Source: Verrucomicrobiota bacterium (lineage in GTDB: Bacteria; Verrucomicrobiota; Verrucomicrobiia; Opitutales; Opitutaceae). From it: 64,000 bases of DNA. A program made the position numbers and the translations under genes. This document shows, piece after piece, positions 2,862-20,597 of this stretch. The DNA lies in contig VHCJ01000005.1 of NCBI GenBank assembly GCA_016871755.1, forward strand, positions 124,001 through 188,000, in the 5' to 3' direction. Numbering within the stretch: position 1 is the stretch's first letter; every line of letters starts with the position of its first letter. The notes under the pieces are model-generated. The model did not search any database, was not told the DNA's origin, and saw nothing but the letters and a program-made list of their open reading frames with translations.

Positions 2862-2914
2862 CGGAAGGATGTTCAGGCGAGCGTGGCGGATCGGATCAAT
2901 TCGGTCGGCCGGCG

Positions 2915-4477: not shown

Positions 4478-4482
4478 TCGGC

Positions 4483-7400
4483 CTACTTGTTGAGGAACTC
4501 GTCGAGATTGAGGAACTGGCTGGCCACCATCGTCCACGCGGCCAGTTCGGCCGGATCAAGGCCGGGGGCCACGGAGGATTCACCGACGCCGAGGAGCAGG
4601 ATCGTCGCGTTCGCATCCGCGCGGTAGTGAGCGGAGAAGCGAGCAAGCGGTTCCCGGAAGTGCCCCTTCTCCCGCGCCGACAGGGGGCGACCGAGCGTGT
4701 AGCCCGCCAGCGCCTGGAGCCGGGCGTCCGGGTCCGGATTCCCGGCCAGCAGCACGCGCTCGGCAAGCTTGCGCGAGGCCTCCACCCACTGCCGGTCGTT
4801 CATCGTGACGAAGGCCTGCAGGGGCGTGTTGCTCCGGGGACGCCGCACGCAGGCGAGTTCGCGCGACGGACTGTCAAAGGTCTCGAAGGTGGGCGGCGGA
4901 GACGAGCGCTTCCAGAAGGTGTAGACGCTCCGGCGGTACAATTCGTCGCCGCGGCCGATGATGTGGCTGCGCGTGTTGGACTCCGGCATCGCCACCTCCT
5001 CCCAGAGACCTGCGGGCTGGAAGGGCTTGACGGGCGGGCCGCCGAGCCGGGGCGAGAGGAGGCCCGCCGCAGCCAGCGCTCCGTCGCGCAGCACTTCGCC
5101 ATCCATCCGGAAGCGCGGACCGCGCGCGAGGAGGCGGTTCGCCGGATCCTTCTCCAAGTCCTCCGGTCGCACCCGCGACGATTGCCGATAGGTGGCGGAG
5201 AGAACGAGCAACCGGTACAGGCGTTTCACGTCCCAGCCGCTTTCACGAAACTCCACCGCCAGCCAGTCGAGCAGTTCCGGGTGCGAGGGACGCGAGCCCA
5301 TCACGCCAAAGTCGCCGGGGCTGTCCACGAGGCCCGTGCCGAAAAGCTCCTGCCACATGCGGTTCACCGTCACCCGCGCAAAGAGCGGTTGCTCGGGCGC
5401 CATCAGCCAGTCCGCCAAGCCGCGGCGGTTGCGGGGCGCCCCGGCTGGGAGCGGCGGCAGGAAATGCGGCGTCTGCGGTTCCACCCGCTCCCCCCGGGCG
5501 AAGTAATCGCCGCGCTTCAGGACATCCGCGAATGCCGGCGTGGACTTCTCCTGCGCGATGAGCGTGGGCACACCCGTCTTGGTCAGTTCCTGCAAGCGCG
5601 TCTCCACCGCGGCGAGCTGGGCGACAAGGGTGCGGCCTTCCTTATCCCGCTCCCCAAGGAAGAAACGCTCCGCGGCAATGAACGTCTCCAAGGTCGTCCA
5701 CTGAGCGGGGTCCGGCTGGCGCGTCACGATCTCCGCCGCCAGGTCCTCGAAGGGCAGGCGCGCCACTTCCTCTTCCGTCAACGCACGCCGGTACAATCGG
5801 ATGTCCTGATAGCTGGTCTCGCGCAGGGGATTCGCATCGTCGCGCCGCCCGAGATGCGTGGTCGCCGTGGTCCGGATCGACCGTCCCGGCTCCAGGGCAT
5901 CCGCCACCAGGGTCGTCTCAACGCGCCGGCCATTCACGTACACGGCGATCCCGGAGGCCTTGCCCGATCCGTCGTAGGTGAAGGCCACATGCTGCCATTC
6001 GTAGCGGGGCAGACGTTCCTTGGTCGCCACCGTGATGACCTGCTTCGCGTCGTGGGCCAGATTCACCTCCAGACGGGCGTCGCGCTGGAAGAGGTCCCAG
6101 CCGCGTCCGTCCAGCTTGCTGGCATCTCCGCGCCGGGCGATGAGCGAGCCGTCGCCCGTGTGCCCTCCGCCCGTCTTCTGGCGCAGCATGATCCAACCCG
6201 CGAAGGAGAGTGGATCGCCGGTGTCAATGTCAGCCACGTCGCCGAGCGGGAGACGGCTTGCAATGTCCATGCGCATGCTGGACCAAGCCCAGTTCGTCTC
6301 GCCCCACACGAGCGGATTCACTTCCGCCCGAAATTCCTTCACCCGCGCCTCCGGGGCGCTGTTCCGAACGACGTCACCGCGCCCTTCGTCAAAGCGGAGC
6401 CGCAACTCAAGCGCGGCCGCATCCACCGGTCGGGGCCGCTGCCCGGTCGCCAGCCAGTCGGCGATCCGACGCCGCGCCTCCGCGCGCCGAACGTCCTGCT
6501 TCTCCAGCAGGTCGGCCCGCTCCGCGATCGCCGCCTCCACCTCCGCCCGGCGCGCCGGAGGCGGCAGGCGCAGCACCGGCAGCGGATCCGGCGTGTTGTA
6601 ATCCCAGGGCTTCTCCGCGGTGTTTCCGAGGAACGCCGCCAGCGCATAAAAATCCTTCGCCGTAATCGGATCAAACTTGTGATCATGGCACGCTGCACAC
6701 CCGGTCGTCAGTCCGAGGAAGGTCGCCCCGAAGAATTCCACCCGGTCGCGCGTCTGGTTGACGTAGATCTCCTCCGTGATCGTACCGCCCTCGTTCGTCG
6801 TCATGTTGCACCGCATCATGCCCGTCGCCACCATCTCATCGATCGAACGCGCCGGCAGGAGGTCCCCGGCCAACTGCTCCCGCACGAAACGATCGAAGGG
6901 CTTGTTGCGGTTGAACGCATCGATCACGTAGTCGCGGTACGGCCAGATCGCGCGGTAGTTGTCGAAATGGATGCCGTGGGTGTCCGCATAGCGCACGTAG
7001 TCGAGCCAGTACCGCGCGCGGTGTTCGCCGAAGCCCGGGTTGGCGAGAAGGCGGTCCACCGCTCGCTCGTAGGCTCCGGGAGCGCGGTCGTTGACGAATT
7101 GCTCCTTCTCCTCCGGGCCCGGTGGGAGTCCGGTGAGATCCAGGCTGGCCCGGCGAAACCAGGCCCGCGGGTCCGCCTCCGGCGAGGGCGTAAGCCCAGC
7201 CTGCGGCAGCGCCGCCCGAATGAAGGCATCGACCGGATTCCCCGTCGCCGCCGTTCCCGGGGTCGCCGGAACCGCCGGGCGCTGCGGCGCGATGAACGCC
7301 CAGTGTTCCTCGTACTCCGCTCCCTCCGTCACCCAGCGCCGCAGCGACGCCACGTCCTCCGGCTTGAGCGTCTTGTGCGCCTCCGGTGGCGGCATCCGGT

Positions 7401-7830
7401 AACGGTCGTCCGTCGACTCAATCCGTTGGATCAGCGGACTGCGCTCCGGGCTCCCAGCCACGATCGCCGGTCCCGTCTTCTCCAGCGGACGGAACGCGTA
7501 CTCCGCCCGATCAAGGCGCAGGTCCGCTTTCCGCGATCCCGGGTCCGGTCCATGACAGTGATAGCAATTCTCCGCGAGGATCGGCTGGATGTGCTCGTTG
7601 AATGCCAGCTTCGCCGGCGCCACTGTAGCCGCCGCCACCGTCACCTCCGCCGCCCCAGCACCGGCACGAGGCTCGCCCGCCGCTTCACGAACCGCCCCGT
7701 CGCTCCGCCGATCGCAGCCCGCAAGGAGAAGCGCGGACGCACTCAAACTCGCAATCAGCCAACGGGGTGAAATTTCAAGAATGCTCTGGAATTTCCACGA
7801 GCGTTCACGGGGCAGGAACGAGCGGCACAT
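4483..7830 (-). CDS. DUF1549/DUF1553 planctomycete-type cytochrome lipoprotein with LamG-like insert
   Basis: A very large secreted protein (1115 residues from the ATG at 7830; an in-frame TTG lies at 7863). The N-terminal signal ends in the lipobox LAGC, with cysteine about residue 39, predicting a lipoprotein. A PSCyt1 heme motif CYHCHGPDPGSRKADLRLD follows near residue 89. Next come a DUF1549 domain (RRASLDLTGLPPGPEE; HRARYWLDYVRYADTHG), a laminin-G-like beta region near the middle (DGSGKASGIAVYVNGRRVET) and a C-terminal DUF1553 domain (VTVNRMWQELFGTGLVDS, LLVLSATYRQSS). It forms an operon-like row with the DUF1501 gene 6 bp downstream. The family is abundant in PVC bacteria and is suspected, not proven, to act on polysaccharide-derived substrates. 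Confidence 0.92.
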   Translation of the reverse strand: MCRSFLPRERSWKFQSILEISPRWLIASLSASALLLAGCDRRSDGAVREAAGEPRAGAGAAEVTVAAATVAPAKLAFNEHIQPILAENCYHCHGPDPGSRKADLRLDRAEYAFRPLEKTGPAIVAGSPERSPLIQRIESTDDRYRMPPPEAHKTLKPEDVASLRRWVTEGAEYEEHWAFIAPQRPAVPATPGTAATGNPVDAFIRAALPQAGLTPSPEADPRAWFRRASLDLTGLPPGPEEKEQFVNDRAPGAYERAVDRLLANPGFGEHRARYWLDYVRYADTHGIHFDNYRAIWPYRDYVIDAFNRNKPFDRFVREQLAGDLLPARSIDEMVATGMMRCNMTTNEGGTITEEIYVNQTRDRVEFFGATFLGLTTGCAACHDHKFDPITAKDFYALAAFLGNTAEKPWDYNTPDPLPVLRLPPPARRAEVEAAIAERADLLEKQDVRRAEARRRIADWLATGQRPRPVDAAALELRLRFDEGRGDVVRNSAPEARVKEFRAEVNPLVWGETNWAWSSMRMDIASRLPLGDVADIDTGDPLSFAGWIMLRQKTGGGHTGDGSLIARRGDASKLDGRGWDLFQRDARLEVNLAHDAKQVITVATKERLPRYEWQHVAFTYDGSGKASGIAVYVNGRRVETTLVADALEPGRSIRTTATTHLGRRDDANPLRETSYQDIRLYRRALTEEEVARLPFEDLAAEIVTRQPDPAQWTTLETFIAAERFFLGERDKEGRTLVAQLAAVETRLQELTKTGVPTLIAQEKSTPAFADVLKRGDYFARGERVEPQTPHFLPPLPAGAPRNRRGLADWLMAPEQPLFARVTVNRMWQELFGTGLVDSPGDFGVMGSRPSHPELLDWLAVEFRESGWDVKRLYRLLVLSATYRQSSRVRPEDLEKDPANRLLARGPRFRMDGEVLRDGALAAAGLLSPRLGGPPVKPFQPAGLWEEVAMPESNTRSHIIGRGDELYRRSVYTFWKRSSPPPTFETFDSPSRELACVRRPRSNTPLQAFVTMNDRQWVEASRKLAERVLLAGNPDPDARLQALAGYTLGRPLSAREKGHFREPLARFSAHYRADANATILLLGVGESSVAPGLDPAELAAWTMVASQFLNLDEFLNK

Positions 7831-7918
7831 GGGGTGAACGGAAGAGGTCCGAGCGTCAGTCAAGCCCTCCTCCGAGCGAAGTAAAGCCCAGCCGAACGTT
7901 CGCGCCAGCGCTGAATTT

Positions 7919-10543
7919 TCATCCTTTGCGACGGCGGAACATCGGGTCCCGGGGAGAGCCCCCGGACAGGATGTACGCCACGAGATCCTGCAGCTCGCCG
8001 CCGTTGAGGGCGTTGATCAGGCCGGCGGGCATCAGCGAAACGGGATTCGGACGGCGCGACCGAATGCTGGACCGGGCGACGCGCGTCGTGTCGTCAGGCA
8101 AGAAGGGGTTCGTCATCAGGACCAGCGAGTCGCCTTCTTCGCCGACCGCGCGGCCCGCGAGCGCGGACCCGTCCGTCAACTCGAAGATTTCGCTGCCGTA
8201 CTGGTCGCTGATCACATGCGAGGGTTCCACGATCGCCTGCAGGAGGTCGCGGACCGAGTAGCGGCTGCCCGCGCCGGTGAGGTCCGGCCCGACCCCGCTC
8301 CCGACCTCGCCAAAGCGGTGGCACGCGGTGCAGGCCAGCGCCTGGAACATCGCTTGCCCTCGCTCGAAGTCCCGACCGATGAGGGGAACGTACACCGCGT
8401 CGACGGCCTGCTCGAGCGTGTAGTCACGACCTGGGCCCTGCGGCAGGAGACCGGCGGCGGTCATGGTGGCGGGCGGAGGCTTCGACGCGGCCTCCAATTC
8501 AGCGCGCAAAGCCGGATCCGACACACCCAGCAGCGCGTCGCGGCGGATGGCCTGGACGAATCCGGGCAGACTGAGGCCACCCCGCCATTCACTGCTCCGG
8601 CTGATCCAGGCGAAGAAGTCCCGGTGCAACGCGGGCGTCCACCCCGTCCGCGCGAGGCGCAGCGCCGTCGCATAGGCGATTTGTTGCCGATCCGGCCGAC
8701 TCTTGGCGTGGGCCACGAATGCTTTCGCGTAACGTTCGTTGCGCGCGATCAGCGCCACGGAGTGGGTCGTCTCGCCCGCCGACTCGGCGACCGAAAGGAG
8801 CGGCACGAGAAGGCGCGACGCCGCCGGGGACTCGAGGTAGACGAGCAGCCCCGCCATTTCACGGTTCGCCGCCGGATCGTCCGTCGGAAACGCATTTTCG
8901 ATGCGCGCGGCGAGCCGGGCGCGGAGCGCCGGATCCGGGTCGCCCATCCGCGTGAACGCGAGTTCCCACGCGCGCAAGAGGGCCAGCCGGCCCTCGCCGC
9001 GAAGGGCGGCGACGTCGTGGCGCTCCAGCGCGGCCCAGAGGCGTTCCCGAACCGCACCGGGACCGCGGCGCGCCAGCGCCAGCAGCGACTCCACGCCGGC
9101 CGTGGGATTGCTCTCCGCGAGCGCCCGCTCCGCCCAAAGCTCCACGGGCTGATGCTCCAGCGCCACGCGGGCCACGGTGCGCAGGGTGCGGTCGTTCTCC
9201 GCAAGGGCCGCCCAGATTTCCGTGAGGTCGCCCGCCGCCGCGCCCGGCGATTGCAGGGCCTCCAACCGGCGCCGTCGCTCGACGGCTGGCGTGGGCCGCT
9301 CGACCGGCACCGCGGCGCTGGACTCGGCACCGGTGTAGGTCACGCGGTACAGGGCGGACTGCGTCCGGCGTCCGCCGGTCGCGAAGTACAACGCCCCATC
9401 CGACGGATTGACCACCAGGTCCGTGAGCGGCAGCGGCGTCCCGGACAGGAACTCCTCCGTCTCCGCCGCCACGGTCGATCCGTCGGGCCGGAGGTGGAGG
9501 GCATAAAGGGTGCCGTAGGTCCAGTCGGCGATGAAGAGGGCCCGCTGGTAGCGCGCCGGGAAACGGGCTCCCGTACCGAACACCATCCCCGTCGGCGATC
9601 CGGGACCGATGTCGATCACCGCCCCCAGCGAATCGGCAAGGTACGCGGGCCGCCGGGCCGAACCGCTGCGCCAGCCGAAGTCCGCCCCGCGCACGACATG
9701 GTTCACCCGGGCCGGCACGTACCACGGGGTGCCAAGATCCCATTCCATGTCGGAGTCATAGACGAACAGTTCCCCCGTCAGGTCGAAGGCCGCATCGAAG
9801 GAGTTGCGCATCCCGATCGCCACGAGTTCGGCACCGGAGCCGTCGAGGCCGACTCGCACGACGTGGCCACCGGGCGCGTAGCGCTCCTTGGCGTGGCCGC
9901 GCGGGTCCCAGAGGCGCGGCAGGAGGTGATCCTCACCCCACGCCACCGGCCCGCCCGCTCGCAACTGCGCCGGGGGTTCCGTGAAGTTTCCGCTCACCAC
10001 GTGGAGCGAACGCCCATCGGGGCCCGCCAGGACCGAGTGCGGACCGTGCTCCTTGCCGCCATCCAAGGGAAGAATGAGTTCGGGCGGACCATAACGGCCC
10101 GCACCGTCGAGGTCGCGCAGGCGGTAAAGGCCGCCCGGCTCGGACTCGTTGACCACCACGTAGAGACTGCCCTGCGTGTAGAGCACGCCGTGGGCGCCGC
10201 TCAGGCCCGACTGCAGAGGCTCAACCTCGGCGCGGAGAGTGCTGCCCGGACTCGGCGGACGAACCCGGAACAGGCCGCCGTACTGGTCCGCCGCAATCAG
10301 TCGGCCCTGCGGATCCACCGTCAAGGCCACCCACGAGCCCTGCCGGTCGCGGGGAACCTCGTAGAGAAGCTCGACCCGGAAATCCGGCACGACCTGCAGC
10401 GCCTTGCCGGTCACGGGGGCCTCCAGCGGCGGGAGTTCCGGCGGGGGGCGGCGCGGCTTGCGCGTCGGCTCCGCCGCGAAGGCGGCCAGCGGGACGTTCA
10501 CCGCGAGCAGCGCGGCCAACCCAAGGAGCGCAGCAGGGCGCAT
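7919..10543 (-). CDS. PVC-type CxxCH heme-binding dehydrogenase-like protein (short form)
   Basis: An 874-residue exported protein with an N-terminal signal (MRPAALLGLAALLAVNVPLAAFA). Residues about 50-400 resemble the glucose/sorbosone-dehydrogenase beta-propeller, with strings such as AHGVLYTQGSLYVVVNE and FVYDSDMEWDLGTPWYVP. An alpha-helical, HEAT-like middle follows, and a C-terminal c-type heme domain has CTACH near residue 735 and the GVGPDLTGAGSRYSVRDLL signature. The ATG at 10543 shares one base with the upstream TGA stop (TGATG), with a GTG immediately before it, so coupling with the ThuA-DUF1080 gene is likely. A role in periplasmic sugar or alcohol oxidation is inferred from the family and neighbours. 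The actual substrate is unknown. Confidence 0.9.
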   Translation of the reverse strand: MRPAALLGLAALLAVNVPLAAFAAEPTRKPRRPPPELPPLEAPVTGKALQVVPDFRVELLYEVPRDRQGSWVALTVDPQGRLIAADQYGGLFRVRPPSPGSTLRAEVEPLQSGLSGAHGVLYTQGSLYVVVNESEPGGLYRLRDLDGAGRYGPPELILPLDGGKEHGPHSVLAGPDGRSLHVVSGNFTEPPAQLRAGGPVAWGEDHLLPRLWDPRGHAKERYAPGGHVVRVGLDGSGAELVAIGMRNSFDAAFDLTGELFVYDSDMEWDLGTPWYVPARVNHVVRGADFGWRSGSARRPAYLADSLGAVIDIGPGSPTGMVFGTGARFPARYQRALFIADWTYGTLYALHLRPDGSTVAAETEEFLSGTPLPLTDLVVNPSDGALYFATGGRRTQSALYRVTYTGAESSAAVPVERPTPAVERRRRLEALQSPGAAAGDLTEIWAALAENDRTLRTVARVALEHQPVELWAERALAESNPTAGVESLLALARRGPGAVRERLWAALERHDVAALRGEGRLALLRAWELAFTRMGDPDPALRARLAARIENAFPTDDPAANREMAGLLVYLESPAASRLLVPLLSVAESAGETTHSVALIARNERYAKAFVAHAKSRPDRQQIAYATALRLARTGWTPALHRDFFAWISRSSEWRGGLSLPGFVQAIRRDALLGVSDPALRAELEAASKPPPATMTAAGLLPQGPGRDYTLEQAVDAVYVPLIGRDFERGQAMFQALACTACHRFGEVGSGVGPDLTGAGSRYSVRDLLQAIVEPSHVISDQYGSEIFELTDGSALAGRAVGEEGDSLVLMTNPFLPDDTTRVARSSIRSRRPNPVSLMPAGLINALNGGELQDLVAYILSGGSPRDPMFRRRKG

Positions 10544-12237
10544 CACGGAAGGTGCGTCAGCCCGAGATTGCGGAACTGCACCGTCATCGCCGGCCCCTTG
10601 TGGAGTTGCAGGGCGATCACGCCTTCGGCCGCTGCGGCCCCGGCATCATCATCGGTGATCTCCGCGGTGATCACGCCGTTGACGCGGTGAATGAGGCGGT
10701 CTCCGACCGCGGTGATGACGAGGTCGTTCCAGTCCTCGAGCCGGAACGCGTCCGCCACGGCCCCGGCCGGAGCCGTCTCCCCGAGTACCTCGGGCGCAAA
10801 GGTGCCGCCCGCCGGAGCCGCGGACAGGCGCACCCGCTGGCCGGGCCGCGCGAGGATGCCGCGGCCGCGCTCCTCGTAAAGCATGCCGACGTAGCGGCCT
10901 GCCGCATCCATGTCGGCTTGGTAGCCGCCGACGATTCCCTTGGTCGCATCGATGACCCGGCTCCGGTACTGCACGCCGGAATTCGCGGTCCGCTTTTCGT
11001 TGATATCCCGGAAACGGAACTGCAGCCGGAGCTCAAAGTTGCGCACGGTGCCGCCCTTCCAGACGAGGAAGACGTTCTGCTCGATCGGCGCGGCATCGGT
11101 CGTCCGACCGGTGATCGCACCTCCCTCGACCGACCAGAGCTTGGGATCCCCCTCCCAGCCGCCGAGGCTCAGGCCATCGAAAATCCGCTGCGCCCCCGCC
11201 GGAACCTCGCTGCCGAGGCGGTAATCGCCGGGTCGGAGTCCGATCCGGAAGGCGATGAAGCCGTAGTTGAGGGGATGATACGGATCCACCGGTTCGACGT
11301 CCGCCGACGGCGGCACCGTCTGGCCGGCGAGCCAGAACACCGCGTTGACGACCAGACGCCGCAGGCCGGCGTCCGTCAGGTCGGTGGCCGCCCCCATCGT
11401 CGTGCAGACGATGCGGTTCTCGACGCCACTGGGCTGGCGGTGCACCCGGGTCCACGCAATGGGCATCATGGGTGCGTTGATCGGTTGCGTCTGGCGGTCG
11501 GATGCCCGGGTCTTCACCCGGTCGGCGGCGGGCGACGTCCGCCCGAGATCGCGCACGACCTCGCCGCGCAGGAGGATCGTGGCGTCGGCCGGCGGATACA
11601 CTTCGTACACATCGCTGTCGCCGAAGACGTCGGACACGCCCCTGAGGACCGGATGGCCCGCCGCAGCGGCCTCGATGACGCCGCGGGTGGCCTCACGCTT
11701 GTGGTCGCCCCAGTGGGTGACCCATGTCTCGCCGAGAACGGCCTTGCCGAATCCGCCGGGGAACGGACCGTCCTTCCGGTTCCATGACAGTTCGTTCCAG
11801 CGGCTTGTGGCCGGAAAGTTGAACGCGTGAGTCGAGGTGCGCAGCGCGAGGATCGGGACGCCGCGGGCGAAGGCGCGCATGAAGCGCTCCATGTCGGCGT
11901 CGGGCCACGCCCGGAACCGCAGGGCCATGACCAGCACGTCGGCCGAGTCGAGGGCGGCGGAATCCGCCAGCGAGCGCACGTTGTTCGGATTGATTGCGCC
12001 GTCCGCGTCGAGCGGGAAGAGCACCGTGCATTTGAACCCATGGCGCTGGCTGAGGATCTTCGCCAGCATCGGGAGCGCCTCCTCGCTCCGGTATTCCTCG
12101 TCTCCGGCAAGGAGCACGACGTGGGCGCGGGGGGTGGCGCCGCCCGGGGGCAGAAGCACGAGCGAGGTCGGCCCCGCAAGGAGCGAGCCGACGGAGCCAA
12201 GGAGGAACAGGAGGGAGGCAAGCGGGCGGAACGACAT
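10543..12237 (-). CDS. ThuA-like plus DUF1080 (3-keto-disaccharide hydrolase-like) fusion, exported
   Basis: A 564-residue two-domain protein from the ATG at 12237, chosen because it begins a clear signal peptide (MSFRPLASLLFLLGSVGSLL). Another ATG at 12354 overlaps the upstream stop but would bury the signal. Residues about 35-290 are ThuA-like (trehalose-utilisation family, glutamine-amidotransferase fold), with VVLLAGDEEYRSEEALPM and TRVHRQPSGVENRIVCTTMG. Residues about 350-560 form a DUF1080 beta-sandwich (IFDGLSLGGWEGDPKLWSVEGG; FRFRDINEKRTANSGVQYRS). DUF1080 members cleave 3-keto-glycosides, which fits the adjacent Gfo/Idh oxidoreductase and TIM-barrel genes. The gene lies in a tight minus-strand operon. 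Confidence 0.9.
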   Translation of the reverse strand: MSFRPLASLLFLLGSVGSLLAGPTSLVLLPPGGATPRAHVVLLAGDEEYRSEEALPMLAKILSQRHGFKCTVLFPLDADGAINPNNVRSLADSAALDSADVLVMALRFRAWPDADMERFMRAFARGVPILALRTSTHAFNFPATSRWNELSWNRKDGPFPGGFGKAVLGETWVTHWGDHKREATRGVIEAAAAGHPVLRGVSDVFGDSDVYEVYPPADATILLRGEVVRDLGRTSPAADRVKTRASDRQTQPINAPMMPIAWTRVHRQPSGVENRIVCTTMGAATDLTDAGLRRLVVNAVFWLAGQTVPPSADVEPVDPYHPLNYGFIAFRIGLRPGDYRLGSEVPAGAQRIFDGLSLGGWEGDPKLWSVEGGAITGRTTDAAPIEQNVFLVWKGGTVRNFELRLQFRFRDINEKRTANSGVQYRSRVIDATKGIVGGYQADMDAAGRYVGMLYEERGRGILARPGQRVRLSAAPAGGTFAPEVLGETAPAGAVADAFRLEDWNDLVITAVGDRLIHRVNGVITAEITDDDAGAAAAEGVIALQLHKGPAMTVQFRNLGLTHLP

Positions 12238-12353
12238 GGGAGGGGCGGGAAAGACGGGCGGGGAGGAGGACGAATGCCCGCCGCCGTCGGCACGGCTGGC
12301 AGGCATCCAGAGGGAAGCGCCGGACCGGGTGCGCCGGGGCGGCGGATGACTCA

Positions 12354-13496
12354 TCACTTCGCGGACTTGACCTTGACCCAGCGGCCGGAGTCGGCGGACG
12401 AGAGCACGGCGTGCGTGACCAGATCCGTGGCAAGTCCGTCGCGGAAGGTCGGTGCCGCCGGCTTCCCCTCCTCCACCCCGCGCAGGAAGTCGGCGACCTG
12501 GTGGACGAATGAGTGCTCGTAGCCGATCTGAAGCCCGGGCACCCACCAGTTCTTCATGTACGGCTGATCGCCGTCGCTGACATGGATGGAGCGCCAGCCG
12601 CGGACGATGCCCGGATCGCGGTGATCGAAGAACTGCAGGCGGTGCAGGTCGTGCAGATCCCAGAAGATCGAGCCGTGCTCGCCGTTGATCTCAAACGTGT
12701 ACAGTGCCTTGTGGCCGCGCGCATAGCGGGTCGCCTCGAACGTCGCGAGCGAGCCGTTGCTGAAGCGCGCGAGGAACGCGCTGGCGTCGTCGATCAGGAC
12801 CTTGGCCACCTTGCCGGTGGCGGCGTGCTTGCGTTCCTTGACGAAGGTCTCGGTCATCGCTGACACCGTGTCGATCGAGCCGTTGAGCCACAGCGCGGTG
12901 TCGATGCAGTGCGCCAGCAGGTCGCCGGTCACGCCGCTGCCCGCGATGGAGGCATCGAGCCGCCACGTGCCCGGTCCGCCCTGCGGCACATCCGAGGAGA
13001 TCGTCCAGTCTTGGAGGAACTTCGCGCGGTAGTGGAAGATCTTCCCGAGTCGGCCCTCGTCGATGAGGTGCTTGGCGAGGGTCACCGCCGGGATGCGGCG
13101 GTAGTTGTACCAGACCATGTTGGGCACCTTGGCCTTCTCGATGGCCTTGACCATCTGCGCGCCCTCGGCGGGGTTCATCGCGAGGGGCTTCTCGCAGAGA
13201 ATCATCTTGCCGGCCTTGGCGGCGGCGATCGCGATCTCGGCGTGGACGTTGTTCGGCGCAGCGATGTCGATTAGGTCGATGTCGGGACGCGCGATGAGCT
13301 TGCGCCAGTCGGTCTCGACCGACTCGTAGCCCCACGTGTCCGCGAAGGCCTTGGTCTTGGCGGCGTCGCGGCCGCACGCGGCCCTGAGCACCGGGTTAAG
13401 TTCCCCGGGGAAGAAATTGCGCACCTTGCGGAACGCGTTCGAGTGGGCCCGGCCCATGAAGCCGTAGCCGATCATGCCAACGTTGAGGGTCTTCAT
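12354..13496 (-). CDS. Gfo/Idh/MocA-family NAD(P)-dependent oxidoreductase
   Basis: A 380-residue cytoplasmic sugar oxidoreductase. The N-terminal Rossmann motif [16 protein letters not shown] and the family marker ILCEKPLAM (catalytic Lys-Pro pair) are intact, followed by [13 protein letters not shown] and a C-terminal alpha/beta half with the usual [13 protein letters not shown]. Start chosen at 13496 ([12 protein letters not shown]). The longer frame upstream adds a basic, unconserved leader. Such enzymes oxidise or reduce ring hydroxyls of sugars and inositols, and in some pathways form 3-keto-glycosides. The position between the DUF1080 fusion and a TIM-barrel epimerase supports that kind of role by inference only. 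Substrate specificity cannot be read. Confidence 0.92.
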
Positions 13497-13522
13497 AGAA
13501 AGAAAGCGTCGCGGCGCTGGGC

Positions 13523-14566
<1,044 letters not shown>

Positions 14567-14611
14567 GGATGATCGGGGTTGAAGGGAAAGGCCGGACGCT
14601 GACGGAGTGTC

Positions 14612-15877
14612 TTAGAAGGTGTTGTGACGGTAGGCGCCCATCGCGGGGGCATCGGGATTAACCTCGGGACCGAAGTAGCGCAGCATCACGAGCGGCTCGA
14701 CCGTGCTGGTGTTCTCGAAGGTCACGCCCGCCTTCGCGGCCGCCTCGGTGCAGAACACCTCGTCCTCGGTCATCTCGTGGAAGCGGATCAGCTTCGGGCA
14801 GTCCAAAGCGAGGCGGTTCATGCGGCCCTTGCCCTGCACCGTGATCAGGCCGTACGCGCCATTATCCTTGATCGTGCACTTCGCGCCCGGCTCGAGCGTG
14901 AGTTCCTTGGCGGTGAAGAGCTGCGCTCCCTTGACCCGCCCGTAGACGATCCAGCGGTCAACGTAGCCCTCGCTCCCGGTGTCCGCGACAGGCACCGGCT
15001 CGAGGTAGTGGTTGTCCTTGAAATTCGGATCCAGGTTCTCCTCCCAGTCGAGTTGGTCGACGATGAAGTCGAGGTCCTGATGGCGCTCCTTCGGGACATC
15101 CTTGACGAGGAGCGACCACGGCACCTCGCGGCCCTCGACGAGCGACTGGTACATGCCGAAGACGTCGGAGCCCCACTGCGGCTCGTAGGTGCAAAGCGAT
15201 CCCGGAGCGTGCAGCACGCAGGGCGGGATCAGCCAGCCCGTGCCGGGCTTGAGACGGTAGGCGCGGGAGAGGTCGAGAATGCCATTGTCGCCGCGGTTCC
15301 AGTTCTCCAGCGCCTTGCGGACCTGCGCGCGCGTGGTCCCCGGCTCGAGGCCCATGAACGTGTACGGGAAGTTGTTCCCTACGTTGTTGTGCTGCGGCGG
15401 GAAGTAGTACGACTCCGGCTTGCCCTCCTGCCCGACCAGCGCGGCCTGCGCCTGCGACTGGTGCATGTGGTGCGGGATCGGACCCATGTTGTCGAAGAAC
15501 TTCGAATACACCGGCCACTTGCCGTACTTGCCCCAGATCGCGTCGCCGATCAGGCCGGCACCGCACTCCGCCACCGCGTCCTGCAGGGTGAAGCGGTTCC
15601 CGCCGGCCACGACATAGCTCAGGCCCTCGTCCGGCGTGCGGTTCTCGTTCGCCGCCGGCGTCGTCGAGGCGAACCAGCGCTCATCGATGCCGCCGCGGTT
15701 GAGACCGAAGGCGTAGAGATCGTCCGGGTGCAGCTTGAGCCGCTTGCCCGGCTGGAGGAACGACCGCGGCACCCAGCAGGGCGCGAGGCGGAGCAGGCCA
15801 CCGCTGTCGGCCAAGGCGGCCTCGACCAGCGGACGGACGTTGGAACGAACGGTCTTCAGGGACGTGACGGAACGCAT
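14612..15877 (-). CDS. Cupin-like sugar-related protein, mannose-6-phosphate-isomerase-like
   Basis: A 421-residue cytoplasmic protein starting MRSVTSLKTVRSNV at 15877. A 38-codon in-frame extension upstream lacks conservation-like sequence. The pattern IPHHMHQSQAQAALVGQEGK followed by ESYYFPPQHN resembles the metal-binding first cupin motif. The later region GAQLFTAKELTLEPGAKCTI with GLITVQGKGRMN resembles a second cupin barrel. This architecture recalls class I mannose-6-phosphate isomerases, but no specific family assignment is certain. Neighbouring Gfo/Idh and TIM-barrel genes in the same direction suggest it handles a sugar intermediate. It is the first structural gene of the minus-strand run, downstream of the AraC-type regulator gene. 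Confidence 0.7.
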   Translation of the reverse strand: MRSVTSLKTVRSNVRPLVEAALADSGGLLRLAPCWVPRSFLQPGKRLKLHPDDLYAFGLNRGGIDERWFASTTPAANENRTPDEGLSYVVAGGNRFTLQDAVAECGAGLIGDAIWGKYGKWPVYSKFFDNMGPIPHHMHQSQAQAALVGQEGKPESYYFPPQHNNVGNNFPYTFMGLEPGTTRAQVRKALENWNRGDNGILDLSRAYRLKPGTGWLIPPCVLHAPGSLCTYEPQWGSDVFGMYQSLVEGREVPWSLLVKDVPKERHQDLDFIVDQLDWEENLDPNFKDNHYLEPVPVADTGSEGYVDRWIVYGRVKGAQLFTAKELTLEPGAKCTIKDNGAYGLITVQGKGRMNRLALDCPKLIRFHEMTEDEVFCTEAAAKAGVTFENTSTVEPLVMLRYFGPEVNPDAPAMGAYRHNTF

Positions 15878-16060
15878 GGGAAAATCAGGGCGCCGGCGCA
15901 GCGGACCGGCACCAGAGGTGCCGCCGCGGAGCGACGGGAACGGCGGAGAGACGCGACGGGGGCATGGGGTGCGCCGGGGAACGGACGCCAAAGCCTAGCC
16001 GAGGGGAGTCGGCTTGGCTAGGACCGTGACGGCATTTTTTGGGAGAAAAGCGGCGCCGCG

Positions 16061-16828
16061 TCAACCGGCGTGCCGTTCCCGGTAGCTGCGCGGGGTCTCC
16101 CCCCGCAGGCGGCGGAACTCCCGGTTGAAGTGACTCTGATCCGCGTAGCCGAACTCACTGGCGATTTCCGCCAGACTCTTGCGCGTCTGGACGAGGGCTT
16201 GGCAGGACATGCGGACGCGCAATTGGCGGACGAATTGGTGGGGGGTGCAGCGGTAGCTGGCGAGAAACTGGCGTTCGAAGGCCCGCAGTGACAGCCCGCA
16301 CACTTGGGCGAGCCGGAGATTGGAGAGCGGCTTGCCGACCTCCTCGGAAATGAGCCGCAGCGCCTGGCTCAGCGGTTGCCCCCGCGTGACCTTGGCGGCG
16401 TCCCCCATCGGCCGGGTGATGCCGGCCGTCCCGACCACCTTCCCGTCCGGGGCGTGCAGCGGGATCTTGGTCGTCGAGCACCATCGGGAGGTGTGATCGT
16501 AGCGGCCGATCAGTTCGACGCGGCCGACGATCGGCTCACCGGCGAGCACCCGCTCATCATCGACCCGGTACAATTCCGCGAGATGCGGCGCACAGAGGTC
16601 ATAGTCAGTCTTCCCCAGCACCTGTTCCCGCCGTTCCAGTCCGAAGTTCAACAGGAAGGAGCGGTTGACCCATTGGTAGTGACCGGCCACGTCCTTGATC
16701 CAGAGCGGCACGTCCTCCAAGGCGTCGCACAGGATGATCGCTTCCGAGGCAGCCGCCCCGATGCGGCGCAGGGAGTCATGAAGCGGGCGGGGCGAGGACA
16801 CGGCGGGGCGTACGCTAGCCCGGCTCAA
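16061..16828 (-). CDS. PAS-domain AraC-family transcriptional regulator
   Basis: A 255-residue regulator. Residues about 25-145 form a PAS sensor (LWIKDVAGHYQWVNRSFLLN; GKTDYDLCAPHLAELYRVDD; PDGKVVGTAGITRP), replacing the usual cupin ligand domain. The last 100 residues are an AraC double helix-turn-helix, with LRLAQVCGLSLRAFERQF and the signature SLAEIASEFGYADQSHFNRE. No ATG starts the frame. TTG at 16828 gives the full length listed, and GTG at 16801 is an alternative. It lies upstream of the sugar-oxidation genes and divergent from the large CxxCH gene at 16908, with only 79 bp between. It is therefore the natural candidate regulator of both directions, although the signal sensed is unknown. 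Confidence 0.9.
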   Translation of the reverse strand: MSRASVRPAVSSPRPLHDSLRRIGAAASEAIILCDALEDVPLWIKDVAGHYQWVNRSFLLNFGLERREQVLGKTDYDLCAPHLAELYRVDDERVLAGEPIVGRVELIGRYDHTSRWCSTTKIPLHAPDGKVVGTAGITRPMGDAAKVTRGQPLSQALRLISEEVGKPLSNLRLAQVCGLSLRAFERQFLASYRCTPHQFVRQLRVRMSCQALVQTRKSLAEIASEFGYADQSHFNREFRRLRGETPRSYRERHAG

Positions 16829-16907: not shown

Positions 16908-19900
16908 ATGCGCCTCGATTCCGCCGCTTGGTGTCGCTTCGTCTCCGCCTTCTTCGCCGCCACCGCGCTGTCCAACGCGACCGCGCTCCCGCTCATCGCC
17001 GCCGCAACCCCGGCCGCCCCGAGCGCGAAGGGTCGGCTGTCACTCCAACCGGCCGACCGCAGCCCCACTCCCGTGGTCGCGGGTCCCTCCGAGGAGCCGC
17101 GCACCGCCGTCCAGCGCTTCCGTCTTCCCGACGGGTTCTCGATTTCCCTGTTCGCCGCCGAGCCGCTGCTCGCCAACCCGGTCGCCTTCACCTTCGACCG
17201 CGATGGCACCGCCTACGTCGCCGAGACCTACCGCTACCGCTCCAGCGTCCTCGACATCCGCGACTACATGTCGATGCTGGAGGAGGACCTCGCCTGCCGG
17301 TCCACCGAAGACCGCCGGGCCCTGATCCTGCGGGTCTTCGGCACCGAGGGCCACGCCGAGCTTTCGCGGGAATCGGACCTCGTGCGCCGCATCACCGATG
17401 CCAACCGCGACGGGGTCGCCGACGGCTCCAGCATCTTCGCCGACGGGTTCAACGACGCCCTCGACGGCATCGCCTCCGGCGTGCTCGCCCGGGACGGTCA
17501 GGTTTGGTTCACCAACATGCCGCACCTGTGGCGCCTCGACCCGGCCGACGCAGCCGGCCGCTCGCGCGGCCGCACCTCGCTCAGCGAAGGCTACGGCGTG
17601 CGCTTCGGGTTCACCGGTCACGATTCGCACGGACTCATCCTCGGTCCGGATGGCAAAGTCTATTTCTCCTTCGGTGACCGCGGGGCGCGGGTGCGGACGA
17701 AGGAGGGCACGCTGATCGACCTGCCCGACTGCGGCGCCGTGCTGCGGTGCAACCCGGACGGCTCGGAGCTTGAACTCGTGCACACCGGGCTGCGCAATCC
17801 GCAGGAACTCGCGTTCGACGACTTCGGGAATCTCTTCACCGGGGACAACGACTGCGATCAGGGCGACATCGAGCGCTGGGTCCATGTCGTCGAGGGTGCC
17901 GACAGCGGCTGGCGCGTGGGCTACCAGCACCACCCGCTCGGGAAGGCCGGACCGTGGAACCTCGAACACCTGTGGCTGCCGCGCTTCGATGGCCAGCCGG
18001 CCTACATCCTTCCGCCCGTCGCCAACACGCCCGATGGTCCGTCCGGGCTCGCCTACTACCCGGGCACCGGCCTGCCCGACTCCTTCCGCGGTTCGTTCTT
18101 CATGTGCCATTTCCGGGGTTCATTCACCAACAGCGCCATCTACCGTTACCAACTCGCCCCCGAAGGCGCCTCGTTCCGGCTCACGCTGCAGGAAAACTTC
18201 CTTTCCGGAACGCTCCCGACGGATGTCGACTTCGGACCGGACGGCCGACTCTACTTTTCCGACTGGGGTCAGGGCTGGGCCAAGTCGAGCCGGGGTCGCC
18301 TCTACGCGCTGACCCATCGGGAAACCGCCAACGACCCGCGGATCGCCGAGGTCCGCCAGCTCTTCGCCGCAGGCTTTGCTCCGAGGCCCACGGAAGAGCT
18401 CATCGCGCTCCTCGCGCACGCCAACCAGCGGGTCCGGCTGGAGGCCCAATTCGCCCTCGCCGCCCGCGGTGCCGCGGTCGCGCCACCGCTGCGACGCGCC
18501 GCCGAACGCGGCACCGTGCAACTCGCGCGCATCCACGCCCTCTGGGCCCTCGGACAGATCGGCCGCGCCGACCGCACCGTGGCGGATGGACTGCGGGGTT
18601 TCCTCGCGGATGCCGACGTCGAAGTCCAGGCCCAGGCAGCCAAGCTCGTCGGCGACCTGCGCCTCGCCGAGGCGGCCGACGCCCTTCTGATCCGGGTGAG
18701 TCAGGACTCGCCGCGCGTCGCGTTCTTCGCCGCGCAGAGTCTCGGCAAGTTGGCGCGGGGCGATGCCGCACCGGCACTGCTCGAGCGGGCGCGGCAGAAC
18801 GGGGATCGCGACCTCACCCTGCGCCATGCGCTGGTGATGGGACTGGTCGGTGGCCGCAACCTCGACGTCCTTCGCGCGGCGGCGCACGATCCGGCCGTCG
18901 CCGTGCGCCTCGCCGCTCTCCTTGCCCTTCGCCGGCTCGGTGACCCGGCGATCGCGGCTTTTCTCGACGACGCGGATCCGTTCGTCGTGGCGGAGGCGGC
19001 CCGGGCGATCAATGACGCCCCGATCATCGCGGCGCAGGGCGCTCTGGCGGCGCTGGTCGCGCGGCCGGGCTTCGGGGAGGATCGCCTGCTCGCCTTGCGC
19101 GTCCTCAACGCGAACGCGCGCGTGGGCGGCCCCGACCGCGCCGAGGCGCTCGCGCGCGTGGCGGCGGACCCGCAGCAGCGCGAGGAACTCCGCGCCGAAG
19201 CCCTGCAACACCTCGCCTCCTGGCCCGAGCCCTTCGCCCGCGACCGCATTGTCGGCGTCTTCCGGCCGCTGCCCCCCCGTGACGCCGCTCCGGCGGCCCT
19301 CGCGCTCGCCGATCGCCTCGACGCACTGCTCCGCGATCCCTCGGACGCGGTCGTTGTGACGACGCTCAAGGCGGTGCGCGCCCTGCGCATCGCCTCGGCG
19401 AGCGATGCCATGATCGCCGCGGCGCTCCGCGAGGAAGCCAGCGACACCATTCGGATCGCCGCGCTCGAAGCCGTGGTCGCCGCTGGACACCCCCGCCGGG
19501 CCGAGGTCATTCGGACGGCGGGCCTGGCGGCATCAGCCGAGGTGCGGGCAGCCGCCCAAGCTCACTTCGGCCATCTGCCGCCGAACGAGGCCTTTCCACT
19601 CCTCGTCCACGCCCTCCGCGCCGGCTCCACGGTTGAACGGCAGAGCGCCATCACCGCGCTTGGAGCCCTCGGCACCGCGGACGCCGATGCGCTGCTTGCC
19701 GAGGGGCTGCGCTCGATGGACGCCAACCCGGTCTACGCTGCGCTGCAGGCGGAACTCCTCAACGCGGCCGAAGCCCGCGGGACCCCGGCGTTGGCCTCCC
19801 TGCTGGAAGCCCGGAGTTCGCGCCTCGCCCAAGCCACCACTGCGCAGCGGTATGCCTTCGCGCTGCAGGGCGGCAACCGCGCGCGCGGCCGTAAGCTCTT

Positions 19901-20597
19901 CAACGAGCATCCCGTGCTCGCTTGCGTTCGCTGTCACATGGTCGGCGGCGAGGGCGGCGCCGCTGGTCCCGTTCTCGACGGAATCGGACGCGCCCATGCG
20001 CGTGAATACCTCGTCGAAGCAATCGTGGCCCCCAACGCCACGATCGCGCCAGGGTACGACGCCGTGTTCCTGACCCGGCGCGATGGCACGACCGTGATGG
20101 GCAGCATCGCGCAGGAGGACGACACCGGCCTCACGCTCCGCCCCACCTCGGGCGAGGCACCCGTCCGCGTGCTGCGGTCAGACATCGTGAAGCGAGAGAG
20201 TGCTCCCTCCAGCATGCCCGCGATCTTCGGTACGATCCTGACCCGCTCCGAGCTCCGCGATCTCGTGGAGTACCTCGCCTCGCTGACCACGCCTCTCGCC
20301 CGCACCGAGAGCGCCAGTCACGGACAGCACCGACTGCATCGGCGCGGCGCGGAGCGCCCGGCGCTCAGCGGGCCTCGTACACTTCGACCAACGCCACGCC
20401 GGTGGTGTCGTTTACCCCGGAGACCTGCGCGGTGTAGGCGCCCGCCTCGAGGTCGATCAGCATTGCCGCGTCCCGGCTGGCGTTGTCGAGTACGAAGGCC
20501 CCCGAGGCGGCCGCCGCGGTGCGGATCGCCGTCGCGTTGGCGGACTGGCCCCAGTCGTCGTTGGTCGCGATCGTCATCTGGCCGCGCAGGAGGGTGA
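16908..20597 (+). CDS. Giant PVC-type CxxCH heme-binding dehydrogenase-like protein (HEAT repeats)
   Basis: A 1229-residue exported protein. A signal peptide (about residues 1-35) is followed by a glucose-dehydrogenase-like beta-propeller (about 60-470: FDRDGTAYVAETYRYRSSVL, LTGLRNPQELAFDD-type loops, YQHHPLGKAGPWN). Next is a long run of HEAT-like helical repeats (about 490-960). A cytochrome c domain carries CVRCH near residue 1006, with the GPVLDGIGRAHAREYLVEAI signature. Family members usually stop shortly after a motif like the ELRDLVEYLASL found near residue 1120. Here the frame runs on for about 100 arginine/proline-rich codons antisense to the neighbouring gene, so the true stop may have been lost by a small frameshift. 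It is divergent from the PAS-AraC gene and probably controlled by it. Confidence 0.87.
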   Translation: MRLDSAAWCRFVSAFFAATALSNATALPLIAAATPAAPSAKGRLSLQPADRSPTPVVAGPSEEPRTAVQRFRLPDGFSISLFAAEPLLANPVAFTFDRDGTAYVAETYRYRSSVLDIRDYMSMLEEDLACRSTEDRRALILRVFGTEGHAELSRESDLVRRITDANRDGVADGSSIFADGFNDALDGIASGVLARDGQVWFTNMPHLWRLDPADAAGRSRGRTSLSEGYGVRFGFTGHDSHGLILGPDGKVYFSFGDRGARVRTKEGTLIDLPDCGAVLRCNPDGSELELVHTGLRNPQELAFDDFGNLFTGDNDCDQGDIERWVHVVEGADSGWRVGYQHHPLGKAGPWNLEHLWLPRFDGQPAYILPPVANTPDGPSGLAYYPGTGLPDSFRGSFFMCHFRGSFTNSAIYRYQLAPEGASFRLTLQENFLSGTLPTDVDFGPDGRLYFSDWGQGWAKSSRGRLYALTHRETANDPRIAEVRQLFAAGFAPRPTEELIALLAHANQRVRLEAQFALAARGAAVAPPLRRAAERGTVQLARIHALWALGQIGRADRTVADGLRGFLADADVEVQAQAAKLVGDLRLAEAADALLIRVSQDSPRVAFFAAQSLGKLARGDAAPALLERARQNGDRDLTLRHALVMGLVGGRNLDVLRAAAHDPAVAVRLAALLALRRLGDPAIAAFLDDADPFVVAEAARAINDAPIIAAQGALAALVARPGFGEDRLLALRVLNANARVGGPDRAEALARVAADPQQREELRAEALQHLASWPEPFARDRIVGVFRPLPPRDAAPAALALADRLDALLRDPSDAVVVTTLKAVRALRIASASDAMIAAALREEASDTIRIAALEAVVAAGHPRRAEVIRTAGLAASAEVRAAAQAHFGHLPPNEAFPLLVHALRAGSTVERQSAITALGALGTADADALLAEGLRSMDANPVYAALQAELLNAAEARGTPALASLLEARSSRLAQATTAQRYAFALQGGNRARGRKLFNEHPVLACVRCHMVGGEGGAAGPVLDGIGRAHAREYLVEAIVAPNATIAPGYDAVFLTRRDGTTVMGSIAQEDDTGLTLRPTSGEAPVRVLRSDIVKRESAPSSMPAIFGTILTRSELRDLVEYLASLTTPLARTESASHGQHRLHRRGAERPALSGPRTLRPTPRRWCRLPRRPARCRRPPRGRSALPRPGWRCRVRRPPRRPPRCGSPSRWRTGPSRRWSRSSSGRAGG

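Follow-up and report, generated by a model that had tools for sequence, protein, structure and literature searches.

Which pathway is served by a run of predicted sugar-related genes that stands beside a transcriptional regulator in a member of the Opitutaceae? The locus lies on contig VHCJ01000005.1 of the Verrucomicrobiota bacterium assembly GCA_016871755.1 (3.67 Mb in 144 contigs; nearest named relatives, Opitutaceae bins), within a 64-kb stretch (contig positions 124,001 to 188,000) that was analyzed as a whole and is called the window below; coordinates refer to it. A preliminary description, made from the sequence alone, read a PAS-AraC regulator, a cupin-like protein, a triosephosphate isomerase (TIM) barrel protein, a Gfo/Idh oxidoreductase, a ThuA-DUF1080 fusion, and a CxxCH-containing dehydrogenase as a possible operon for the oxidative cleavage of 3-keto-glycosides. 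The present analysis shows that the conserved unit is smaller than first proposed and consists of the cupin, the TIM-barrel protein, and the Gfo/Idh oxidoreductase. With its regulator, this trio may form a module that oxidizes and then isomerizes a sugar.

Organization and coding potential of the locus

Each of the six open reading frames (ORFs) of note was confirmed, and all are encoded on the minus strand. The regulator (255 amino acids [aa]; 16061 to 16828) is followed by the cupin (421 aa; 14612 to 15877), the TIM-barrel protein (347 aa; 13523 to 14566), the Gfo/Idh/MocA oxidoreductase (380 aa; 12354 to 13496), the ThuA-DUF1080 fusion (564 aa; 10543 to 12237), and the CxxCH heme protein (874 aa; 7919 to 10543). 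The intergenic gaps are 183 nt between the regulator and the cupin, 45 nt between the cupin and the TIM-barrel gene, and 26 nt between the latter and the Gfo gene; the Gfo stop is separated from the ThuA-DUF1080 start by 116 nt (counted by hand), and the last two genes overlap by 1 nt. For the fusion, a start at 12237 is more likely than one at 12546, given a signal-like segment recognized by eye.

The base composition is of the coding type, with G+C contents of 0.84 to 0.93 at third codon positions (GC3) and 0.41 to 0.54 at second positions (GC2). Substitutions relative to locus L001 (loci and genomes are designated L and G, respectively) number 10/4/114 at codon positions 1/2/3 in the cupin gene, 11/6/102 in the TIM-barrel gene, and 9/1/105 in the Gfo gene. 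ORFs, composition, and domains thus agree with the original description of four successive genes on one strand with a CxxCH gene next. Judged by eye, signal-like N termini are present in the ThuA-DUF1080 and heme proteins and in none of the three preceding proteins; the cupin, TIM-barrel, and Gfo products are therefore probably cytosolic.

Conservation of the cupin, TIM-barrel, and Gfo/Idh genes

The cupin and the TIM-barrel protein were searched in the same 387 genomes of the phylum. The cupin was found in 102 genomes at E values up to 0.001, with strong matches (E < 1e-40, tallied by hand) in 64, and the TIM-barrel protein was found in 39, always at ≥56% identity. A strong cupin accompanies the TIM-barrel protein in 28 of these 39 genomes but occurs in only 36 of the 348 genomes without it (Fisher's exact test, P = 1.7e-16), a value that overstates the case because the genomes are related by descent and kinship was left uncorrected. 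Eight of the strong matches are weak taken singly, namely, seven divergent copies and the cupin of G053, which was found in pieces. In 27 of the 28 genomes, both genes share a contig and are separated by no more than about 5 kb; in the exception, G277, the TIM-barrel gene has just a 42-residue cupin piece beside it, the strong match being on a different contig.

A Gfo gene whose product is at least 60% identical to that of the window adjoins in 25 of the 26 genomes examined, a count that leaves out G215 and G277 and includes genomes where the Gfo gene is cut by the stretch end (G012, G351, G160, and G298 are so affected); in the exception, G347, the neighboring Gfo is 30% identical. All three products are closely similar to those of L001 (98%, 96%, and 97% identity for the cupin, the TIM-barrel protein, and Gfo, respectively). 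At codon positions 1 and 2 combined, changes relative to L001 amount to 14 in 421 codons of the cupin gene, 17 in 347 of the TIM-barrel gene, and 10 in 380 of the Gfo gene.

Among 80 named cupin loci, the TIM-barrel gene lies within the stretch in 21 and not in 59, some of the stretches being short. The cupin thus often occurs without the TIM-barrel protein, and the TIM-barrel protein mostly occurs with the cupin and Gfo. The 59 loci where the cupin stands without the TIM-barrel gene in the stretch examined are L019 and 58 others (L068 ends after the cupin). Cupins in such loci are 78 to 87% identical to that of the window, and no constant neighbor was seen among them.

A further family of about 380 aa, designated c8, was found in 26 stretches (about 16 genomes or loci). 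Its gene usually lies immediately upstream of that for the cupin or TIM-barrel protein (for example, L066, 6795 to 7949) and is downstream in L003. A copy 51% identical is encoded elsewhere in the genome of the window, on contig C16. The members from L066 and L149 have no Pfam match, and naming the family by a PDB profile search was given up, as the sole match was irrelevant (E = 0.51).

Predicted properties of the three core proteins

The TIM-barrel protein matches PF01261 (E = 1.1e-13; 52 bits versus a gathering cutoff of 31.1) and no other Pfam family. No NCBIfam family was matched, and no sequence relative was found among PDB chains, even by profile at E values up to 1. Its AlphaFold model (predicted local distance difference test [pLDDT] score of 81, from 20 sequences) has its top structural matches, at Z scores of 23.3 to 23.6, in 2zds, L-ribulose 3-epimerase, IolE, and D-tagatose 3-epimerase; AtHYD (8ro4) is also among the matches, at a Z score of 21.9. 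An epimerase, an IolE-like dehydratase, and a 2-hydroxy-3-keto-glucal hydratase are thus not distinguished by the fold. Residues E176, D206, H255, and D312 are invariant in alignments of 20 and 23 sequences and, by analogy with ketose epimerases, would bind a metal. Of the initial idea that a xylose-isomerase-like protein acts here as an epimerase or lyase of 3-keto sugars, the PF01261 TIM barrel stands, while the fold leaves the reaction undecided.

The cupin has no match to any Pfam or NCBIfam family, the ManA and phosphomannose isomerase (PMI) profiles included. It was recognized solely through a PDB profile search and its predicted fold. A profile of 19 cupin sequences searched against the PDB retrieved phosphomannose isomerases at an E value of 8e-4. 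The predicted model is of low confidence (pLDDT of 66); with it, Foldseek matched phosphomannose isomerases at an E value of 1e-6, and VIA gave Z scores of 13.9 to 16.2 to PMI versus 9.7 for the next family. The cupin is accordingly modeled as a new relative of the type I phosphomannose isomerases, with a predicted two-cupin PMI fold.

Residues H137, H139, E155, H223, and E232 are conserved in 70 close relatives. In an alignment of the cupin with four PMI-like proteins from the same phylum (L182, L184, L185, and L186), H139, H223, and E232 are invariant. A GKxE motif is common to the cupins and the PMI-like proteins, except in the divergent cupin copy L150, which has lost E155; L186 has A for G. 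Positions H137, H139, E155, and H223 align with positions that we take to be the metal ligands of PMI, with H137 in place of a Gln in the PMI-like proteins. An Arg common to L182, L184, L185, and L186, presumably the catalytic Arg of PMI, is replaced in the window cupin and in L019, L101, and L150. The cupin therefore resembles type I PMI (ManA) in its cupin fold, HxH and GKxE motifs, and His and Glu positions, and it differs in its lack of a Pfam or NCBIfam match, its His for Gln, and the loss of the PMI-shared Arg. Among the four proteins used in this comparison, L186 passes ManA (125.9 versus a cutoff of 116.2) and PMI_typeI_cat (42.2 versus 22). L184 fails ManA (79.1 versus 116.2), falls just short for PMI_typeI_cat (21.9; cutoff, 22), and scores above the cutoff for the MPI cupin domain (31.9 versus 27). 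L182 fails ManA (49.7 versus 116.2) and has only a subthreshold Cupin_2 match, and L185, scanned against Pfam only, has subthreshold cupin and MPI-cupin matches. The main support for a link between the cupin and PMI therefore comes from the profile and fold searches, together with L186 and L184; L182 and L185 contribute less.

The third protein matches the Gfo/Idh family in Pfam at 7e-25. Its best curated model is levoglucosan dehydrogenase (LgdA, NF052479), at 346.4 bits, below the cutoff of 650, followed by inositol 2-dehydrogenase (iolG), at 116.3 bits, below the cutoff of 355. The glycoside 3-dehydrogenase models BT_2158 and BT_2159 gave 28.7 and 27.4 bits against cutoffs of 750 and 650. 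The PDB relatives are 4h3v (E = 2.5e-99), 6a3f (1e-80; listed as a putative dehydrogenase, which we take to be levoglucosan dehydrogenase), and 5ya8, listed as a scyllo-inositol dehydrogenase with L-glucose dehydrogenase activity; DgpA (7xr9) is a weaker relative (4.5e-21). The suggestion that Gfo makes a 3-keto sugar is therefore strengthened by its nearest model, an enzyme that oxidizes C3, and weakened by the failure of the BT_2158 and BT_2159 models.

A regulator and an upstream element that travel with the core

A PAS-AraC regulator beside a set of sugar genes had been proposed, and both of its domains were found by Pfam (HTH_18, 1e-21; PAS_4, 1.2e-15). Copies 54 to 91% identical are present in 11 of the 80 named cupin loci, 10 of which also have the TIM-barrel gene; in the eleventh, L068, the stretch ends after the cupin.

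Between the regulator and the cupin, comparison of upstream regions identified a conserved 37-bp element, GCCGCTTTTCTCCCAAAAAATGCCGTCACGGTCCTAG, on the minus strand (16054 to 16018). Of the 18 upstream regions that were compared, 12 contain it; of the 13 with the regulator, 11 do (L041 and L080 being those without it). Pattern matches in L041 and L080, as well as an additional one in L004, were judged to be spurious. The element has a single occurrence in the genome at ≤3 mismatches (0 for a backward-pattern control) and one in the window (0 in 100 shuffles). A strict pattern gave 10 matches, corresponding to 7 distinct sites in the loci compared, and 0 matches for the reversed control; this pattern was built from those same sites and missed 2 of 4 examples tried, and the loci overlap. 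A TAnnnT hexamer, seen also in relatives and reading TAGGCT in the window (15992 to 15997, minus strand), lies 20 nt downstream and may serve as a -10 element. The 37-bp sequence resembles, and could be, an AraC-type activator site at a promoter, to which the regulator would bind. Regulator and element accompany the cupin-TIM-Gfo module in one clade. A genome-wide search for the element matched only the operon's own site, so no transporter was linked. A sigma-70 promoter scan gave 1 promoter-like match, which is at chance level.

The ThuA-DUF1080 and heme genes as an extension

The fusion contains a clear DUF1080 domain (PF06439; 109.3 bits versus a cutoff of 26.8) and a weak ThuA part (26.8 bits versus a cutoff of 33.4). 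In the next protein, the CxxCH domain passes TIGR02603 (90.9 bits; cutoff, 68), and the N-terminal part does not reach its model (57 versus 122); the heme domain of the "CxxCH dehydrogenase" was thus confirmed, and the dehydrogenase label was not. At codon positions 1 and 2, changes relative to L001 number 115 in 564 codons of the ThuA-DUF1080 gene and 240 in 873 of the heme gene, so that, compared with this one relative, the two genes form a faster-changing extension of the core. The gene order through the extension is conserved in L001 and L030.

A homemade hidden Markov model for ThuA/DUF1080, seeded partly with ThuA, was applied to stretches longer than 6.5 kb only; a match therefore means ThuA and/or DUF1080. 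Matches on the same strand within 8 kb after the TIM-barrel gene were found in the window and in 15 of 21 named TIM loci. DUF1080 was confirmed by Pfam in the window, in six of the 15 (L003, L024, L027, L064, L079, and L080), and also in L153; the protein of L053 is ThuA only, and a large ORF in L066 has ThuA without DUF1080. Three of the six loci without a match, L026, L029, and L036, are on contigs that end about 1.2 kb past the TIM-barrel gene; the contigs of L152 and L156 end 0.8 and 2.9 kb past it, respectively. In L026, L029, and L036, a CxxCH-type protein, the cupin, and a ThuA protein (99 to 100 bits; cutoff, 33.4) come in that order before the TIM-barrel gene, which stands a few kilobases on; Gfo follows it in L029 and L036, and L026 ends before that position. 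ThuA and heme-type proteins are therefore repeated neighbors of the module, and their arrangement varies. Elsewhere in the genome of the window (G000:C12:11460-13024, minus strand), adjacent PF01261 and DUF1080 genes form another possible pair of the 3-keto type.

Comparison with characterized keto-sugar pathways

A comparison with characterized 3-keto-glycoside clusters, suggested at the outset, showed that the kinds of enzymes are alike but that the defining scores of the named pathways fail. The published accounts, available here in part, describe three systems of interest. The levoglucosan pathway comprises four enzymes, for oxidation, elimination, hydration, and reduction, of which two carry the annotation of sugar phosphate isomerase; levoglucosan dehydrogenase oxidizes the sugar at C3 (PMC7676230). 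The LgdA-LgdB1-LgdB2-LgdC cluster of Bacillus smithii, as described there, resembles the window in having a Gfo protein, here the one nearest to the levoglucosan model, beside a xylose-isomerase-like TIM barrel. However, that cluster has two TIM-barrel proteins (LgdB1 and LgdB2) as well as LgdC, whereas positions 1347 to 16828 of the window encode one TIM-barrel protein and one Gfo, the latter under the equivalog cutoff. Relative to the part of the cluster described, the window has a PMI-like cupin and an AraC regulator instead, and no sugar ATP-binding cassette (ABC) transporter with a binding protein and permeases was seen beside the module.

In Caulobacter, DUF1080 is tied by fitness data to lactose use via 3'-ketolactose; the characterized members named are a 3-ketotrehalose hydrolase and an endo-xanthanase/lichenase (PMC9007349), and in Thermogutta, the family has been proposed to cleave the backbone of xanthan (PMC5673643). 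The LacABC-DUF1080 pathway, as far as it is set out in PMC9007349, is similar to the window in its DUF1080 protein with a signal-like start and its redox genes nearby, but the window has a Planctomycetes-Verrucomicrobia-Chlamydiae (PVC)-type heme protein and, by a probe from L157, no GMC dehydrogenase. A GMC and Gluconate_2-dh3 pair does exist on the same contig about 115 kb away (G000:C5; L189, 5812 to 8368, minus strand), where the two proteins are 69% and 55% identical to the pair in L157, the only locus among those compared in which such a pair adjoins the module. The L157 pair was considered as a glucoside 3-dehydrogenase; because it is most similar in the PDB to fructose and glucose dehydrogenases and the orthologous pair in the window's genome lies about 115 kb off, it was given little weight.

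The O-glycoside eliminase operon of Agrobacterium (AtOGE/AtHYD) is described as analogous to the levoglucosan pathway (PMC10628242). It shares with the window Gfo and TIM-barrel enzymes, AtHYD being a structural match to the TIM-barrel protein; it differs in that the latter has no sequence match in the PDB, and the word "cupin" is absent from the main text of that article as available. Searches of the literature on 3-keto sugars and DUF1080 in Verrucomicrobia and on Opitutaceae operons, with most subscription journals outside their scope, gave no paper on the module. Because the defining scores failed and a PMI-like cupin, which the accounts consulted do not describe, is present in addition, the module was not placed in a named pathway and is regarded as a keto-sugar-like variant.

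Proposed function and alternative explanations

The interpretation put forward here, tentatively and with a probability judged somewhat under even, is that of a regulated module that oxidizes and then isomerizes a sugar and that, in the window, is joined to exported DUF1080 chemistry. Using NAD, Gfo would oxidize a sugar or a small glycoside, and the TIM-barrel metalloenzyme and the PMI-like bicupin would then isomerize, eliminate, or hydrate the resulting keto-sugar. The genes would be cotranscribed, with a PAS-AraC activator of the module's own switching it on, and in the lineage of the window, exported ThuA-DUF1080 and heme proteins may release or oxidize the substrate outside the cytoplasm. 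Co-occurrence of the cupin and the TIM-barrel protein, adjacency of Gfo, the slow-changing core, the regulator and its element in one clade, and the levoglucosan model speak for such a module. The published link of DUF1080 to 3'-ketolactose (PMC9007349, as available), the repeated same-strand ThuA/DUF1080 neighbors in the named loci, and the ThuA proteins between the cupin and the TIM-barrel gene in L026, L029, and L036 add support.

Several findings weigh against this interpretation. Positions 1347 to 16828 contain no second TIM-barrel protein, second Gfo, or sugar transporter; Gfo falls far under the levoglucosan dehydrogenase cutoff and fits neither the BT_2158 nor the BT_2159 model; and terminator-like patterns, at chance frequency (6 versus 8.2 expected), include one just after the regulator and two in the cupin leader. 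The cupin is a divergent one, only 30 to 33% identical, in seven of the 28 genomes (G178, G215, G251, G277, G307, G319, and G327). Cupins without the TIM-barrel protein in 36 genomes mean that the cupin is not tied to the pathway proposed here. The TIM-barrel protein, in turn, is found without the cupin in 11 of its 39 genomes; none of the 8 of these examined has a window-type Gfo, and in three the TIM-barrel gene stands beside DAK1/DAK2 and aldolase genes. In the wider set, only 4 of the 22 other genomes sampled have ThuA/DUF1080 near the TIM-barrel gene, and in one of the four it is on the opposite strand (the sample includes some short stretches); L157, a stretch of G375 from the same genus, has no match within 9 kb past the TIM-barrel gene. 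Outside the 22-genome sample, DUF1080 lies about 1.4 kb from the TIM-barrel gene in G277, among the matches listed. Because each of 28 genomes has 8 to 34 DUF1080 copies among the matches listed, a chance DUF1080 neighbor is not negligible. The inclusion of DUF1080, ThuA, and heme genes in one conserved unit, as originally drawn, was accordingly abandoned. The fused and apparently exported character of ThuA-DUF1080 stood, but DUF1080 alone does not imply 3-keto chemistry, one member being an endo-xanthanase/lichenase (PMC9007349, as available).

In a different explanation, a real contender that is nevertheless somewhat doubtful, the core handles a free sugar, for example, a rare, deoxy, or branched one or a polyol resembling inositol, and cuts no glycosidic bond. 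The TIM-barrel protein would be an aldose-ketose isomerase or ketose epimerase, the PMI-like cupin would be a second isomerase, and the DUF1080 neighbors would be incidental, as their absence near most of the wider set suggests. The standing of this explanation comes mainly from L141 to L143 (three genomes of one Opitutaceae genus), in which the TIM-barrel gene, without the cupin or a window-type Gfo, is accompanied by an IolE-like TIM-barrel protein, a distant PAS-AraC gene (32 to 35% identical; domains confirmed in L141 and L143), a class II aldolase/short-chain dehydrogenase-reductase (SDR) protein, DAK1, DAK2, and an LsrF-like aldolase (families scanned in L141 and carried over by clustering), and from L145, in which DAK2 and an LsrF-like aldolase occur with it; both contexts fit an isomerase or epimerase that feeds a kinase and an aldolase. 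The L-ribulose and D-tagatose 3-epimerases among the nearest folds agree with this, as does a cluster of TIM-barrel proteins that is represented in 8 of 41 clustered sources and whose L041 member, the one scanned, is nearest to psicose 3-epimerase. Against this stand the C3-oxidizing enzyme as the nearest dehydrogenase model and the repeated ThuA/DUF1080 neighbors in one clade. The DAK genes also led to consideration of the apiose pathway, for which the literature gave nothing usable.

It is unlikely, though in keeping with the differing rates of core and extension relative to one relative, that ThuA-DUF1080 and the heme protein are a separate periplasmic unit, for instance, an outer glycan hydrolase together with a respiratory module, that simply happens to lie downstream of the core operon. 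The absence of the extension from L157, the many DUF1080 copies, and the xanthan-related members of the family (PMC9007349 and PMC5673643, as available) would suit such a unit, but the same strand, the 116-nt gap between Gfo and ThuA-DUF1080, in which the scan picked up nothing terminator-like, and the order conserved in L001 and L030 would not. Far less probable still is an ordinary inositol or levoglucosan operon. The two best models of Gfo point there, but both scores are below their cutoffs; one TIM-barrel protein without an NCBIfam match stands in place of LgdB1 and LgdB2, an LgdC-type second Gfo is missing, and no other iol family was found among the seven proteins scanned. The inositol-only pathway, which had been named as a refuting outcome, is thus not borne out either, with an iolG score of 116 bits versus 355.

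Within the proposed oxidizing and isomerizing module, the TIM-barrel protein and the bicupin might be a new enzyme pair with a reaction beyond the described 3-keto-sugar pathways, for example, the conversion of a free 3-keto-hexose to a ketose for central metabolism; this is an improbable possibility. If true, it would explain what becomes of the 3-keto sugars that DUF1080 proteins release in Verrucomicrobiota. The module is a candidate for a step such as the fate of 3-ketogalactose, which Price et al. state to be unknown (PMC9007349, as available). Both families are without a relative characterized closely enough to name a reaction, yet they are strongly conserved and linked across the phylum, accompanied in one clade by a regulator of their own, and the single conserved upstream element offers a direct route to the inducer.

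Neighboring genes

The same-strand run continues beyond the heme gene with a PSCyt1-DUF1549-LamG-DUF1553 protein that has a lipobox-like start, LLLAGC, by eye (4483 to 7830), a DUF1501 protein (2915 to 4477), and a DUF2231-PSCyt1 cytochrome c protein (1347 to 2861), all of uncertain operon membership, followed by an ORF for an ABC transporter ATPase (402 to 1334). A protein matching PSCyt1-DUF1549-DUF1553 is also next in L001 and L030. On the other side, divergent from the regulator, a large PVC-type heme protein with DUF7133/GSDH-like, HEAT, and cytochrome c parts is encoded on the plus strand (16908 to 20597). This protein is kept beside the regulator in the nearest relatives, with identities of 82% in L001, 64% in L002, 91% in L030, and 60% in L157.

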